A DNA stretch of 54,526 nucleotides from the NCBI GenBank assembly GCA_913031575.1, contig CAJWEV010000010.1, forward strand, positions 1 to 54,526, given 5' to 3'. A program made the translations under genes and the position numbers. Below, piece by piece: positions 43,146-48,518 of this stretch. This DNA comes from an uncultured Halieaceae bacterium (GTDB lineage: Bacteria; Pseudomonadota; Gammaproteobacteria; Pseudomonadales; Halieaceae). Below the pieces are notes generated by a model. That model worked only from the letters and a program-made list of their open reading frames with translations. It searched no databases and was not told the origin of the DNA. The stretch's first letter is position 1, and each line of letters starts with the position of its first letter.

Positions 43146-44072
43146 TTACATATTAATCCAGCTATTGCGCGCGCGGACCCTAAATTGGGTCTCGCGCCAT
43201 CGCAGGATGACGCTATCGGGCAGAATCTTTACAACTGTAAACGGACCTACACGCTGTCGCTCGCTCAACGACTGACCGTTGAGAACCACCTCAGAGCGAC
43301 CGTTTGCCGAATACTTGTGCTCGCTGTAAATTAACGACGGTATTTGGTCTTTCGTCTGCTGCGACAGTGTTTCCAATAATGGCTCATCGCTTTCCACTAA
43401 CGCTTGTACGCCCAATTCCTTCTGCGCTTGAGCGAGAATCTCCGCGAAGTCGATCGCAGTAATGTCGTCACCGCCCTTCGACGCTTCCGATACCTCAGAC
43501 ATCTGATCAAGCGTATCGGCAACAACCTCTGTTTCCGCCTCAGAAATGGTTGACGAGTCGAGTGCAGCTTCAGCCTCCTCGTTCATCGCGGCGTAGAGCG
43601 ATGACAGCGCCTCTGCATTGAGCGCGCCAGTCTTTGTCGGTTGGGTCTCAGTCGGGATGACGATCGGTCGTATATCCCTCATGTCCTCATTTAATACCTT
43701 TGCACTTTTTTCTCGTATTGACGACGCCGAAACAGGTGTCGCAGACGCCCGAACCAGCTGCGACTCTGTGTCGGGCGATATATCCTTTAGTGATGCCGCT
43801 TGAGAACCACCACCCTTTATGTCGGCCGGTTCGTTTGTCGAAATATTGCCCTCAATGTCTGCTGGGGCGGATCCATAGTGATTGGTTAAAAACACTAGAG
43901 CCAAGACAGCAACCAGAACGCTAACAGCAGTCAATGCGACAGACGTAAGTCCCACCTTTTTCCAGGTTGACTCATCAGGTAACACGTGATGTTTGGTGTC
44001 GAGAGACGGAACAGACCCTCCCCTCTCAGGCGCCTCTCTGGAGCGCTTAATAGCATCAAGGATCATGGACAT
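43146..44072 (-). CDS. gspB: Type II secretion accessory protein GspB
   Basis: 308-residue inner-membrane protein: short cytoplasmic N-terminus MSMILDAIKRSRE, one transmembrane helix at about residues 42-65 (LTSVALTAVSVLVAVLALVF), an acidic linker, and the C-terminal GspB domain (VGPFTVVKILPDSVILRWRE). With GspA it helps assemble the outer-membrane secretin through peptidoglycan. Its start overlaps the gspA stop by one base, so translation is coupled. The remaining secretion genes are not in the window. Confidence 0.88.
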   Translation of the reverse strand: MSMILDAIKRSREAPERGGSVPSLDTKHHVLPDESTWKKVGLTSVALTAVSVLVAVLALVFLTNHYGSAPADIEGNISTNEPADIKGGGSQAASLKDISPDTESQLVRASATPVSASSIREKSAKVLNEDMRDIRPIVIPTETQPTKTGALNAEALSSLYAAMNEEAEAALDSSTISEAETEVVADTLDQMSEVSEASKGGDDITAIDFAEILAQAQKELGVQALVESDEPLLETLSQQTKDQIPSLIYSEHKYSANGRSEVVLNGQSLSERQRVGPFTVVKILPDSVILRWRETQFRVRARNSWINM

Positions 44073-45709
44073 CAGCGCGCATCCTGCCAGTTTTGAGCAC
44101 GGATGAGCGCCCTGCTCACCGTCAGACCAACGCCCAAACGATCGTTTAGCCTTAGCAAGGTGGGCTGATTCATAACACCATCTATTTTTAACCCCGCAGC
44201 TTCCTGAAATAGCCGTACCCGAGCTTCAAGCGCAGGACCGAACTGAGTGATCTCGTTGAGCTCCATCCCATCAAGCGTCGCAAACATTTGCGCTACCTGA
44301 GTGACCGCGGCACCCGAATCACCGAGAGAAAGCGTGCCTTCCCAGCCGGCGGGTGCCTGCCAGAAAAATCGATACGCTCCTGTCCAGGCGTCGGCAATGT
44401 CGGCCAGCGGCACCCACTGCAAACCCTGATCTGTCCAAACAACCGCATCAGATCCGTCGATCTGAAATACAAGGACACTCGCGAAAAATTTATCCTGAGT
44501 GACGATTTCTAGCAGGACCGGTCGATTAAGCGAAGCTAACTCATCCCAAACTTTTGCAGACCCAACAGTACATGAAAGGCGCGTAATCTTTGGTGGTGGG
44601 CACAGCGATCTGGGGGCCGGTAGGTCCGTTGCCGCCATCCAAAGTTTTGCCAACCCTTCGGATTCACTAAATTCCCATTGAGGGCTTGCAGGCGCTGTAA
44701 ATGCCTGTGTAGTAGGCTCATTTAGGTCTGCTACACCTGGCATATTTGCCGATGTCGGATTTTCAATATCCTCGGCACTCATAATATCGACGGGTACCTT
44801 ACCCATGTAAGCGAGCATTGAACCGACGAGGACTAGCATCATCAAAGCAAGCGACCACCAACTTACACGACTAAACGACAGCCCCTCGCTGTGGCTCTCG
44901 ACAAACACCTCTCTCGCAGCCGAGCGGACCAGGGCGCGGCTAACGCGCTCTCTCTTTTGGCCGTAGGCCCCTAATAAGGCTCGATCGCACAACACATTAA
45001 TTAAACGCGGAATACCCCGCGTGAGGCGGTAAACTTGCTTCACTGCTGACATATCAAACAAACGTCGATCACCCTTTAAACCGCCTACCTCTAGGCGGTG
45101 TCGGATGTAGGCACTGGTCTCGTCGAGATTGAGTGGCTTCAGGTTATAGCGGGCGGTAATCCTTTGATTGAGCTGACGCAATTCGGGCCGAGCTAGCTTA
45201 TCCGACAACTCTGGCTGTCCGATGAGAATAATCTGGAGCAATTTCTCGTCGTTGGTCTCCAGATTCGTCAGCAGGCGTATCTGTTCGAGAACATCAAAGT
45301 CGAGATGTTGTGCCTCGTCGATCATGAGCACTGTCTTTCGCCCGCGATCGTAATTCTCAAGAAGATAGCTATGCAAAGCGTCGGTCAGTGCTTTTAGGCT
45401 GTGGGTTTCCCGAGGGTAGTCGATACCTAGTTCATCACACGCACTGGCCAATAACTCAACGGCACTTAAAGCCGGATTCAAAATGATGGCTAAATCAGTG
45501 GTGTCAGGTAACTGCTCTAGCAAGCATCGGTTAACCGTTGTTTTCCCTGTGCCGACCTCGCCGGTAAGCAAAATGAAACCACCACCCCCGCTAATCCCGT
45601 AAAGTAGATGAGCAAGAGCGTCGCGGTGCCGCTGACTCATGAAAAGGTAGCGCGGGTTAACAGCGATAGAGAATGGCGCTTCGTTGAGTCCAAAGTGTTG
45701 GTAATACAT
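44072..45709 (-). CDS. gspA: GspA/ExeA AAA ATPase with peptidoglycan-binding domain
   Basis: About 545 residues from ATG 45709 (MYYQHFGLNEAPFSIAVNPR, the standard start of ExeA proteins); the frame is open to 45820 without support. AAA domain with Walker A LLTGEVGTGKTTVNR and Walker B VLMIDEAQHLD. One transmembrane helix at about residues 285-305 (WWSLALMMLVLVGSMLAYMG). A periplasmic part ends in a peptidoglycan-binding repeat (VRLFQEAAGLKIDGVMNQPT). It works with GspB to open a path through the wall for secretin multimers. Confidence 0.9.
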   Translation of the reverse strand: MYYQHFGLNEAPFSIAVNPRYLFMSQRHRDALAHLLYGISGGGGFILLTGEVGTGKTTVNRCLLEQLPDTTDLAIILNPALSAVELLASACDELGIDYPRETHSLKALTDALHSYLLENYDRGRKTVLMIDEAQHLDFDVLEQIRLLTNLETNDEKLLQIILIGQPELSDKLARPELRQLNQRITARYNLKPLNLDETSAYIRHRLEVGGLKGDRRLFDMSAVKQVYRLTRGIPRLINVLCDRALLGAYGQKRERVSRALVRSAAREVFVESHSEGLSFSRVSWWSLALMMLVLVGSMLAYMGKVPVDIMSAEDIENPTSANMPGVADLNEPTTQAFTAPASPQWEFSESEGLAKLWMAATDLPAPRSLCPPPKITRLSCTVGSAKVWDELASLNRPVLLEIVTQDKFFASVLVFQIDGSDAVVWTDQGLQWVPLADIADAWTGAYRFFWQAPAGWEGTLSLGDSGAAVTQVAQMFATLDGMELNEITQFGPALEARVRLFQEAAGLKIDGVMNQPTLLRLNDRLGVGLTVSRALIRAQNWQDAR

Positions 45710-45818
45710 ACGAGGCTGCCACAAATTCCGTACCGACATTATGCACGGGCAAAACCACGATGAATACGCGGAATCATGCCGTGTTTGCTTGCTGGCTAAA
45801 AAAACATACTGTAAGTTC

Positions 45819-45830
45819 AAATTCGAATTT
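45819..45830. repeat. 12-base palindrome upstream of the FMN protein gene
   Basis: AAATTCGAATTT is a perfect palindrome 39 bases before the ATG at 45869, in the spacer shared with divergent gspA. It could be an operator. A single small palindrome in AT-rich DNA may also be chance. Confidence 0.25.
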
Positions 45831-45868: not shown

Positions 45869-46828
45869 ATGGCAGTACCATCAATTTTTAAAGACAATTT
45901 GTCGATTCCGGTCATTGGTGCACCCCTTTTCATCATTTCCAATCCGGATCTCGTCATCGCACAATGCAAGGCCGGTGTTATTGGTTCGTTCCCAGCGCTC
46001 AACGCGAGACCAGAACCCGCACTAGAAGAGTGGCTCGAGCGCATAACCTCAGAGCTGAAGGATCACGACAAGAACAATCCCGATAACAAAGCGGCGCCGT
46101 TCGCAGTAAACCAAATCGTTCACGGCTCAAACGCTCGACTAAAGCACGACATGGATATGTGTGAAAAATATGAGGTGCCTATCATCATTACATCGCTGGG
46201 TGCTAAACAATGGGTGAACGATCAAGTTCATGGTTGGGGCGGCATCGTCATCCACGACATCATTAACAACCGATTTGCTAAAAGCGCCATTAGTAAAGGC
46301 GCAGACGGTCTGATCGCAGTCGCTGCCGGTGCCGGCGGCCACGCAGGTCAGCTGTCACCGTTTGCGTTGATTCAAGAAATTCGCGAGTGGTTCGACGGAC
46401 CACTTCTGCTCTCAGGCTCTATGGCAACGGGTGACTCTGTCCTGGCGGCTCAAGCAATGGGTGCTGATATGGGCTACATTGGCTCAGCTTTTATCGCTAC
46501 TGAAGAGGCCAACGCGGACGAGGGCTACAAGCAAGCTATTGTTGACTGTGGAGCTGACGACATCGTCTACAGCAGTCTCTTCACAGGCGTCCATGGCAAT
46601 TACCTGAAGCCGTCAATTGAAAACGCTGGCCTCGATCCCAACAACCTGCCAGAGAGTGATCCCACCAAGATGGACTTTGGGTCAGGTGGCAACACCGATG
46701 CGAAAGCGTGGAAGGACATTTGGGGCTCTGGGCAAGGCATTGGAGCGGTAAAAGCGCGCGAGACAGCAGGCGAATACATCGCCACTCTGGTTGAGCAGTA
46801 CAACGCGGCAAAGGCACGGATTCTTTAA
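45869..46828 (+). CDS. Nitronate monooxygenase-family FMN protein
   Basis: TIM-barrel FMN protein of 319 residues related to 2-nitropropane dioxygenase. Family segments are PVIGAPLFIISNPDLVIAQC at the start, GADGLIAVAAGAGGHAG, which holds FMN phosphate, LLSGSMATGDSVLAAQAMGA, and GYIGSAFIATEEA. A strong AGGAG lies seven bases before the ATG. The family includes oxygenases of nitronates and unrelated reductases (FabK-like), so the reaction is open. It is two bases from the following HMG-CoA reductase gene, an operon that hints at an acyl-CoA or isoprenoid-linked role. Confidence 0.85.
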   Translation: MAVPSIFKDNLSIPVIGAPLFIISNPDLVIAQCKAGVIGSFPALNARPEPALEEWLERITSELKDHDKNNPDNKAAPFAVNQIVHGSNARLKHDMDMCEKYEVPIIITSLGAKQWVNDQVHGWGGIVIHDIINNRFAKSAISKGADGLIAVAAGAGGHAGQLSPFALIQEIREWFDGPLLLSGSMATGDSVLAAQAMGADMGYIGSAFIATEEANADEGYKQAIVDCGADDIVYSSLFTGVHGNYLKPSIENAGLDPNNLPESDPTKMDFGSGGNTDAKAWKDIWGSGQGIGAVKARETAGEYIATLVEQYNAAKARIL

Positions 46829-46830
46829 TT

Positions 46831-48027
46831 ATGAGCGGCCAACGCGCAAAAATTCCTCGTTCGAACGAGGACGACTACAGCGAAGATATCATTGCTGAAC
46901 GTCAAGCGTTTATCGAAGCCCAAACGGGAGCGAAGTTACACCACACCAAGCAATTCTCATATGACCCGCATGTCATGTCCGGAAATATCGAGAACATTTG
47001 GGGAGTTTCCCAGATCCCTATCGGGATCGCAGGACCGCTTCTCGTAGACGGTGAATATGCTAACGGTGAGTTTTTTGTCCCTATGGCGACCGTTGAGGGC
47101 ACCATGCTGGCAAGCTACAACCGAGGGATGAAGGTAATTCGTGAGTCTGGCGGTGTGAAAACCACTGTCTCTGCTGAATCGATGCAAAGAGCGCCCTTAT
47201 TCATTTTTAGCGATGCACGAGAAGCGCGGGACTTCCAGTTGTGGCTGCGAGCCAACGTCGACGCGATCAGAGAGCAGGCAGAGAGCACAACCTCTGTAGG
47301 AAAACTGCTCGAAATCGAGAATTACCACACGCATAACTTTGTGGCGTGTCGCTTCGACTACTCGACCGGTGATGCTGCGGGTCAGAATATGACCAGCCGT
47401 GCCACTTTTTTTGCTTGTGAATGGATACGTAAAAACTACCCAGGAGCCATGCGTAATTACATGCTGTCGGGCAACTGGGACACTGAGAAAAAGACATCAG
47501 CCGTCAACATGTTGAAAGGTCGGGGACGTCGGGTTACGGCTGAAGTTACGATTCCGCGTAAGGTCCTGATGGACAACCTTCGCATCACGCCTGAGCAGAT
47601 GCAGTATGGCTATCAGATAACGACGCTGTCCGCGTTGACGACCTCAAGCTCCAACAATGCAAGTCACCCAGCCAATGGCTTGGCAGCCCTCTACGCGGCC
47701 ACCGGTCAGGACTTGGCCAACATTGGTGAGTCCAACCAGTGCACGGTGTATCAACGTATGACGCGTGAAGGCGATCACTATTTCTCGATCACTCTGCCCT
47801 CTATTATCATGGCCAGCTACGGCGGTGGCACTAATCTTCCAACACAGCGAGAATGCCTTGAGATGATGGATTGCTTTGGCGAGGATCGCGCTCTCAAGCT
47901 TTGTGAAATCGCAGCGGGGCTTGTTGTTGCGGGCGAGTTGTCACTGGCAGCGGCAACCCGAGTCGACAAAACAACACGAACCAATGAATGGGTCGATGCG
48001 CACGAGAGGCTCGGTCGAAACCGTTAA
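46831..48027 (+). CDS. Class I-like hydroxymethylglutaryl-CoA reductase
   Basis: 398-residue HMG-CoA reductase homologue. Visible class I signatures: PMATVEGTMLASYNRG with Glu89, GDAAGQNM (180-187) of the NADPH site, KKTSAVNMLKGRGRRV with Lys220, ATGQDLANIGES with Asp294, and YGGGTNLPTQRECLEM. By alignment in my head these match the human residues Glu559, Lys691 and Asp767. The catalytic His near the end is probably His391 in DAHERLGRN, but the surrounding residues differ from SHM..NRS. Class I enzymes make mevalonate in archaea and eukaryotes. Most gammaproteobacteria use the MEP route, so the role here is unclear. It is co-transcribed with the FMN protein. Confidence 0.85.
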   Translation: MSGQRAKIPRSNEDDYSEDIIAERQAFIEAQTGAKLHHTKQFSYDPHVMSGNIENIWGVSQIPIGIAGPLLVDGEYANGEFFVPMATVEGTMLASYNRGMKVIRESGGVKTTVSAESMQRAPLFIFSDAREARDFQLWLRANVDAIREQAESTTSVGKLLEIENYHTHNFVACRFDYSTGDAAGQNMTSRATFFACEWIRKNYPGAMRNYMLSGNWDTEKKTSAVNMLKGRGRRVTAEVTIPRKVLMDNLRITPEQMQYGYQITTLSALTTSSSNNASHPANGLAALYAATGQDLANIGESNQCTVYQRMTREGDHYFSITLPSIIMASYGGGTNLPTQRECLEMMDCFGEDRALKLCEIAAGLVVAGELSLAAATRVDKTTRTNEWVDAHERLGRNR

Positions 48028-48089
48028 TCGTTACGTTAGCGGTGGTACCTAAACACCTTGGTGTGATTAGATTCCCTCAGGGTGTTTTT

Positions 48090-48518
48090 ATGAAGCGCAA
48101 CATGATGAGGAATACAAAGAACGGAGGAATGACGCTCGTAGAATTGCTGATCGTTGTGGCCATCGTCGCCATTCTCGCCAGTATTACTTTTCCCTCATGG
48201 AACTCACAGGTCCTAAAAGCGCGTCGCGCCGACGCGAAGAACACATTGATGTTTGTGCTAGCAGAACAAGAAAAATATCGCGCGGATAATGGAAGCTATG
48301 CATCGAATATGAGTGCCTTGGGACTGAGCACTTATAACTCAAGCTCACGTGATTACTACAACGTGTCGATTGTCTCGAGCAGTGCTTCAGCGTTTGTTGC
48401 CAGCGCTGCGCCAAACACCAATAGTGAACAGCACGGAGATGGTTGCGGGACCTTTGCTGTCAACCAATTAGGACCCGATGATTCAAGCGGCTACGCTTCC
48501 ATTGCGGATTGCTGGTAA
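48090..48518 (+). CDS. Type IV pilin (PilE-like)
   Basis: Prepilin of 142 residues. Cleavage and methylation site GGMTLVELLIVVAIVAILAS: prepilin peptidase cuts after Gly, leaving Met-Thr-Leu-Val-Glu with Glu5. One hydrophobic helix, then KARRADAKNTLMFVLAEQEKYRADNGSYAS, typical of PilE minor or major pilins, and a C-terminal loop closed by two cysteines (GDGCGTF ... IADCW). ATG 48090 has AGGG upstream. The frame is open to 47988 inside the reductase gene, without support. It stands apart from any pilus operon visible here. Confidence 0.88.
   Translation: MKRNMMRNTKNGGMTLVELLIVVAIVAILASITFPSWNSQVLKARRADAKNTLMFVLAEQEKYRADNGSYASNMSALGLSTYNSSSRDYYNVSIVSSSASAFVASAAPNTNSEQHGDGCGTFAVNQLGPDDSSGYASIADCW

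Follow-up and report, generated by a model that had tools for sequence, protein, structure and literature searches.

A class I-type HMG-CoA-reductase homologue lacking the carboxylate-anchoring lysine, encoded beside an NMO-like gene in a Halieaceae genome, may act outside the mevalonate pathway

What does a homologue of HMG-CoA reductase, the enzyme blocked by statins, do in a bacterium in whose genome the MEP-route enzyme Dxr is present and no mevalonate pathway was found? The question is raised by a stretch of 54,526 nucleotides from an uncultured Halieaceae bacterium (the whole stretch of DNA analysed, called the window here), in which the gene of such a homologue lies directly behind that of an FMN-binding TIM-barrel protein. 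A previous reading of the sequence alone had proposed that the two genes form an undescribed small pathway or, alternatively, that the reductase has been repurposed. In open-licence papers nothing was found on this pair of genes or on HMG-CoA reductases of Halieaceae. The locus contains the following features:

43146..44072, minus strand: GspB-like protein, adjoining the ExeA-type ATPase
44072..45820, minus strand: ExeA-type AAA ATPase with a peptidoglycan-binding domain, divergent from the NMO gene
45869..46828, plus strand: FMN TIM-barrel protein of the nitronate monooxygenase (NMO)/FabK superfamily (PF03060), 319 residues, upstream of the reductase
46829..46830, plus strand: gap of 2 bases between the stop codon of the NMO gene and the start codon of the reductase gene
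46831..48027, plus strand: class I-type HMG-CoA-reductase homologue (the window reductase; PF00368, TIGR00533 and alignments), 398 residues
47988-48518: match to a type IV minor pilin (ComP-like), in the ORF directly after the reductase

The 2-base spacing of the sequence-only reading was recovered, with both ORFs at these coordinates. The window reductase matches PF00368 with 364.6 bits (cut-off 27) over residues 21-396 of its 398 and positions 2-368 of the 368 in the profile, a near-full-length domain that it shares with the archaeal (6hr7), human (1dq8) and plant-type (8ecg) class I enzymes, the archaeal one being its best solved relative (259 bits). Its score against the class I/NADPH model TIGR00533 is 307.4 bits, under the model cut-off of 441.8, and this cut-off was dropped as a discriminator because three controls of the mevalonate type (275-285 bits) likewise miss it. 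The score with the class II model TIGR00532 is 32 bits (cut-off 259.95). The predicted structure is a poor model, with a mean pLDDT of 41.7. The NMO-like ORF scores 74.8 bits against PF03060 (cut-off 28) and matches solved FabK and NMO-type proteins (4iql, 2z6i and 3bo9) although, unlike FabK, it stays far under the threshold of the FabK equivalog model TIGR03151 (69.6 bits, cut-off 453.1). Both genes of the pair are under purifying selection, with dN/dS values of 0.013 for the reductase and 0.014 for the NMO between the window and locus L032, the one unsaturated comparison of four (synonymous sites are saturated in those with L040, L042 and L046). Among 50,697 phage records, a partial reductase match was present in one, that of Halorubrum virus BJ1 (AM491333.1, 8404-8646), where a partial HMG-CoA reductase lies at the end of the record; a phage origin of the gene was rejected.

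That the reductase is class I-like, as previously proposed, was borne out by two trees, in both of which it is found on the class I side, apart from class II. The first tree contains 77 rows, and its 17 class II rows form one separate group (100/98); in the second, to which 18 more mevalonate-type rows were added and in which class II served as outgroup, seven class II rows are grouped with 100/100. The class II labels had initially been assigned by weak similarity, and all four of the rows tested against TIGR00532 pass it (332-459 bits); row L112_II, which has an aberrant branch of about 10 in the first tree and may be badly cut out, was left out of the second. A class II catabolic enzyme was rejected on the TIGR00532 score together with the separate placement in both trees. 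In the first tree, the window reductase falls inside a clade of 21 rows (100/100), composed of 20 Halieaceae rows and L076, which comes from a genome of another family (G093); its sister clade has also 21 rows, and both together are supported with 100/98. The statement that characterised bacterial HMG-CoA reductases are class II was incomplete, as class I enzymes are encoded within mevalonate operons of Streptomyces and several gammaproteobacteria. A Streptomyces class I HMG-CoA reductase has been characterised, and class I HMG-CoA reductases of Vibrio were reportedly discussed by Boucher and Doolittle around 2000.

The catalytic residues of the class I enzymes are conserved in the window reductase. 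Alignment to the human enzyme confirmed the class I contexts that had been described for Glu89, Lys220 and Asp294 in this 398-residue protein, and these residues align with human Glu559, Lys691 and Asp767. The column of His391 holds His in all 75 rows that reach it, and it was linked to the C-terminal His of the human enzyme through L071, because the aligned human row ended before that column. Arg590, Ser684, Lys691, Lys692 and Asn755, which are likewise HMG-pocket or statin-contact residues, are all kept as well. The position of human Lys735, the residue that bridges to the HMG carboxylate and anchors it, is occupied by Thr264. A one-residue gap follows this position in the alignment, and neither Lys nor Arg is present from Met257 to His279 of the window reductase, so that the loss does not depend on the exact alignment. 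Column 735 contains Lys in all 20 bacterial rows of the mevalonate type and in both reference rows, and in none of the 55 others (0/21 of the window clade, 0/21 of the sister clade, 0/6 Vibrio-type and 0/7 other rows), one of which (L093, from Vibrio campbellii) has a Lys elsewhere within the 731-752 stretch.

Other changes, compared with the class I enzymes 6hr7, 1dq8 and 8ecg, concern Asp690, Cys688 and Arg627. Of the cis-loop residues Ser684, Asp690 and Lys692, Ser213 (Ser684) and Lys221 (Lys692) are kept in the window reductase, whereas Asp690 is replaced by Glu219, a Glu found in 21 of 21 window-clade rows. The position of Cys688 is Asp in the whole window clade (21/21) and in 18 of the 21 sister-clade rows, and that of Ser684 is Glu or Asp in all six Vibrio-type rows. 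Arg627, an NADPH-pocket residue (PMC7503714), is replaced by Ser155 (Ser in 20/21 window-clade rows), although it is also missing from two of the 20 mevalonate-type rows. The retention of the catalytic set together with changes in acyl-end residues makes it probable that the enzyme has retained its chemistry and that its acyl end differs.

These counts come from a residue table of 77 rows, from which class II rows were omitted, as was L124, a gene already represented by L127. The loci taken, 30 from a reductase search in 146 genomes and 29 new ones from a search in 276 gammaproteobacterial genomes, are a part of the places found (the mevalonate-type places of G169, G187, G190, G226 and G338, from the second search, were left out); the longer regions comprise two sets of 20 and another 15 that are NMO stretches. 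Some rows share one genome: four in G136 and two each in G073, G118, G093 and G070. The mevalonate-type controls were obtained from the gammaproteobacteria-wide search and checked by tblastn with annotated Streptomyces mevalonate genes; in 17 of the 18 new control loci, the fetched stretch contains one or more mevalonate-gene matches (in L137 it is HMG-CoA synthase alone), and the eighteenth, L128, is on a 6.8-kb contig, with HMG-CoA synthase elsewhere in the same genome. In the 20 loci L057-L076, L071 is of the mevalonate type and L070 of class II, and the remaining 18 have no mevalonate-gene match. Of the 55 rows devoid of Lys735, eight (L042, L051, L053, L090, L091, L092, L093 and L095) are from named records, and the HMG-CoA synthase search covered the genomes of the other 47, with no match in the genomes of 45 of these. 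The remaining two are L096 (G266), with a match of 30.5 bits in the genome, and L098 (G292), where the match shares its contig with a second reductase gene that was assigned to class II because its frame is long.

In the second tree, the 22 rows bearing Lys735 (human, archaeal and bacterial mevalonate-type) form one clade (99/97) that leaves the window reductase outside and that, with class II as outgroup, is nested among the 55 rows without it. This nesting is provisional, because the class II branch and some single rows are long and the human and archaeal enzymes are represented by one row each. Given the absence of Lys735 and its position outside the Lys735 clade, the window reductase was filed as a variant of the family rather than as a proven HMG-CoA reductase. 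Class I enzymes within mevalonate operons (Streptomyces sp. NBC_00019 and the gammaproteobacterial L127-L144) have the Pfam family and the catalytic residues in common with it and are 32-37% identical to it, but they differ in keeping Lys735 (20/20) and in having mevalonate genes as neighbours. Closer in this respect are genes of Alteromonas (48% identity), Vibrio (38-39%) and a Sinorhizobium plasmid (33%) called 'Hydroxymethylglutaryl-CoA reductase', which are also class I-type and lack Lys735, although their neighbours differ; no mevalonate genes are listed in the three annotated stretches of these records.

Of the earlier proposals, that of a repurposed reductase is the one favoured by the evidence, and the source genome has Dxr without a mevalonate pathway that could be found. 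Among named records, those nearest to this genome are from Halieaceae and Luminiphilus, HTCC2080 being one of them; the genus is therefore called Luminiphilus here, and the source genome (G000, 79% complete) presumably belongs to it. A search of 146 genomes, the source genome included, detected Dxr in G000 and gave Dxr matches in 138 of them at E up to 0.001, 136 being over the cut-off. HMG-CoA synthase (PF01154) has no match in G000 at its 79% completeness and is matched in one of the 146 genomes, G127, which is not the source genome and has no Dxr match; the mevalonate kinase model TIGR00549 reaches only 38.8 bits in G000, below its cut-off of 163. A mevalonate pathway in the source genome was rejected on these grounds, at the completeness given. 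The reductase family, counting mevalonate-type and class II genes, was found in 85 of the 146 genomes and in 55 of the 276 gammaproteobacterial genomes sampled. In G129, a near-complete genome, the reductase lies in an open frame of 768 residues, and neither Dxr nor HMG-CoA synthase is matched at the thresholds used.

The arrangement with the NMO-like gene is real, but limited to the genus among the genomes examined. The reductase is present in 50 of the 57 Luminiphilus genomes, whole or as a fragment at the end of a contig, and the NMO in 49; both occur in 47, in every one of which they are adjacent on one strand, and they are close together or overlapping in the 14 loci listed. The pair is presumably co-transcribed. 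In the three genomes with the reductase only (G031, G045 and G055), the match is within 63 bases of the contig start, and the two with the NMO only are G033, where it is at a contig edge, and G053, a single contig with the order ExeA-NMO-TlpA and no match to the reductase or to the minor pilin (47988-48518) between NMO and TlpA. Outside the genus the conservation breaks down: in none of the 15 other Halieaceae genomes that have both genes are they adjacent, being on different contigs in 11 and on one contig, at least about 10 kb apart, in four. In G073, whose reductase (L061) branches beside the genus rows in the first tree, the NMO gene adjoins ExeA, GspB and a PadR-like regulator; the reductase follows 9.9 kb further downstream in the same orientation, and the genes that separate the two include cysS, an FAD oxidoreductase, an amidohydrolase and an SDR. 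The simplest history would be that the intervening genes were lost in the ancestor of Luminiphilus and the reductase was later lost in G053.

Outside the genus, NMO has ExeA, GspB and PadR-like genes as neighbours instead of the reductase. In eight Halieaceae NMO stretches (L125 and L152-L158), an ExeA-type gene is beside NMO and divergent from it in all, a GspB-type gene is present in seven and a PadR-like gene in six (in L154 an overlapping ORF masked the NMO frame in that scan), and two of these stretches belong to genomes without a reductase match (G081 and G088). Across the 34 Halieaceae genomes outside the genus, counting window-type reductases and NMO matches of at least 60% identity, 15 contain both, eight the reductase only, two the NMO only and nine neither, a co-occurrence above expectation (Fisher p = 0.026, from hand counts uncorrected for relatedness). 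This mildly positive association makes a functional link between NMO and reductase possible but unproven.

Neighbours of the reductase were examined as a substrate clue in other Halieaceae loci, and they point to no substrate. An ORF cluster, whose two scanned members are alpha/beta hydrolases by Pfam, is beside the reductase in L057, L059 and L061, and a short ORF is near it in L057, L059 and L074, of which L057 and L059 belong to one genus; no other partner directly beside the reductase and common to several genera was seen among the loci compared. Several homologues have acyl-CoA genes in their surroundings, from which no single substrate emerges: L067 is accompanied by a wax-ester synthase, AMP-ligases, a lipase and an acyl-CoA dehydrogenase, L068 adjoins an enoyl-CoA hydratase and L075 an acetyl-CoA hydrolase/transferase C-terminal domain, and TonB receptors adjoin L062 and L069. 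On plasmid pMl1 of Sinorhizobium meliloti (L091, 4037-13733), the reductase is between acyl-CoA carboxylase subunits, in a locus that also includes an indolepyruvate ferredoxin oxidoreductase and a MmgE/PrpD gene and that looks like a catabolic cluster. G136 contains four homologues (L002, L067, L068 and L069), one of which adjoins a luciferase-like monooxygenase and a TonB receptor. L065 (6702-9500, in G118) joins an HMG-CoA-reductase domain to a phosphotransferase (APH) domain at its C terminus, and a PPDK_N/PEP-utilizer gene comes next; L103 and L095 are long frames similar to it in length, the domains having been scanned in L065.

Taken together, the window reductase is probably a class I-fold NAD(P)H-dependent acyl-CoA reductase (or works in the reverse direction) outside the mevalonate pathway, with a substrate that is probably not HMG-CoA. 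With its Glu/Lys/Asp/His set it most likely reduces a CoA thioester to the alcohol in a four-electron step that uses NAD(P)H, or catalyses the opposite reaction, outside any mevalonate pathway. An acyl-CoA different from HMG-CoA is the probable substrate, given the loss of the carboxylate-anchoring lysine and the acidic residue in the substrate loop; the acyl-CoA genes beside some of the homologues agree with this reading. Both the activity and the change of substrate are deduced from residues, and the loss of one pocket lysine is no proof of a changed substrate, since another residue could anchor the carboxylate. A genuine HMG-CoA reductase working outside isoprenoid synthesis, either converting leucine-derived HMG-CoA into mevalonate or turning scavenged mevalonate into HMG-CoA for cleavage by the lyase, would agree with the retention of the catalytic set and most HMG-pocket residues, and HMG-CoA may exist in the cell, as the source genome carries an HMG-CoA-lyase-family gene (G000:C5:11537-12409; 288 bits, cut-off 246), found above the model cut-off in 115 of the 146 genomes. 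We consider it rather unlikely, given that Lys735 is missing from 55 of 55 rows of these lineages and present in all 22 mevalonate-type and reference rows. The lyase itself is ambiguous as a partner and was not retained as one: its matches separate into two score groups, one high and one lower, and matches above 390 bits occur in two of the 57 genus genomes (G005 and G039), although 50 have the reductase, a split that is a weak argument because both groups pass the cut-off; besides, no lyase gene was noted beside the window reductase in the part of the window ORFs that was scanned.

A small dedicated pathway, with the NMO-like protein and the reductase each catalysing one of its two steps, had been suggested in the sequence-only reading; it is not supported and appears improbable. 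The constant adjacency in the 47 genus genomes, the close or overlapping genes of the 14 loci and the co-occurrence in other Halieaceae speak for it, but the pair is apart in all 15 Halieaceae genomes with both genes outside the genus, G053 retains the NMO without the reductase, and relatives of the NMO (57-68% identity) occur in order-level genomes with no reductase match (G099, G114, G115 and G133). It is very improbable that the reductase gene has no function, having been acquired recently or being in decay: its absence from the single-contig genome G053 would fit, but the gene or a contig-edge piece of it is found in most genus genomes and throughout the family, its catalytic residues are intact and its dN/dS is about 0.013 (from the single unsaturated comparison). 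For the acyl-CoA reductase outside the mevalonate pathway that we favour, the NMO-like gene directly before it is a trait of Luminiphilus alone among the genomes seen, and a shared pathway may still connect them.

A broader proposal places the window reductase in a large, so far undescribed family of class I-fold acyl-CoA reductases from bacteria lacking the mevalonate pathway, whose substrates would be acyl-CoAs with neutral or positively charged tails in place of HMG-CoA; it is more speculative and on balance unlikely. The nesting of the Lys735 clade among lineages without this lysine suggests that mevalonate formation might have arisen secondarily, from an acyl-CoA-reductase fold that is older. 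HMG-CoA reductase family genes are common in bacteria having the MEP route, and the substrate of a new acyl-CoA reductase activity would still have to be found. If the group without Lys735 has another substrate, many annotations are wrong. In one survey, HMGR is named among four marker genes of the mevalonate pathway, of which two are required (PMC10663253). With another substrate in the group without Lys735, genome-based calls of the mevalonate pathway may also be inflated.
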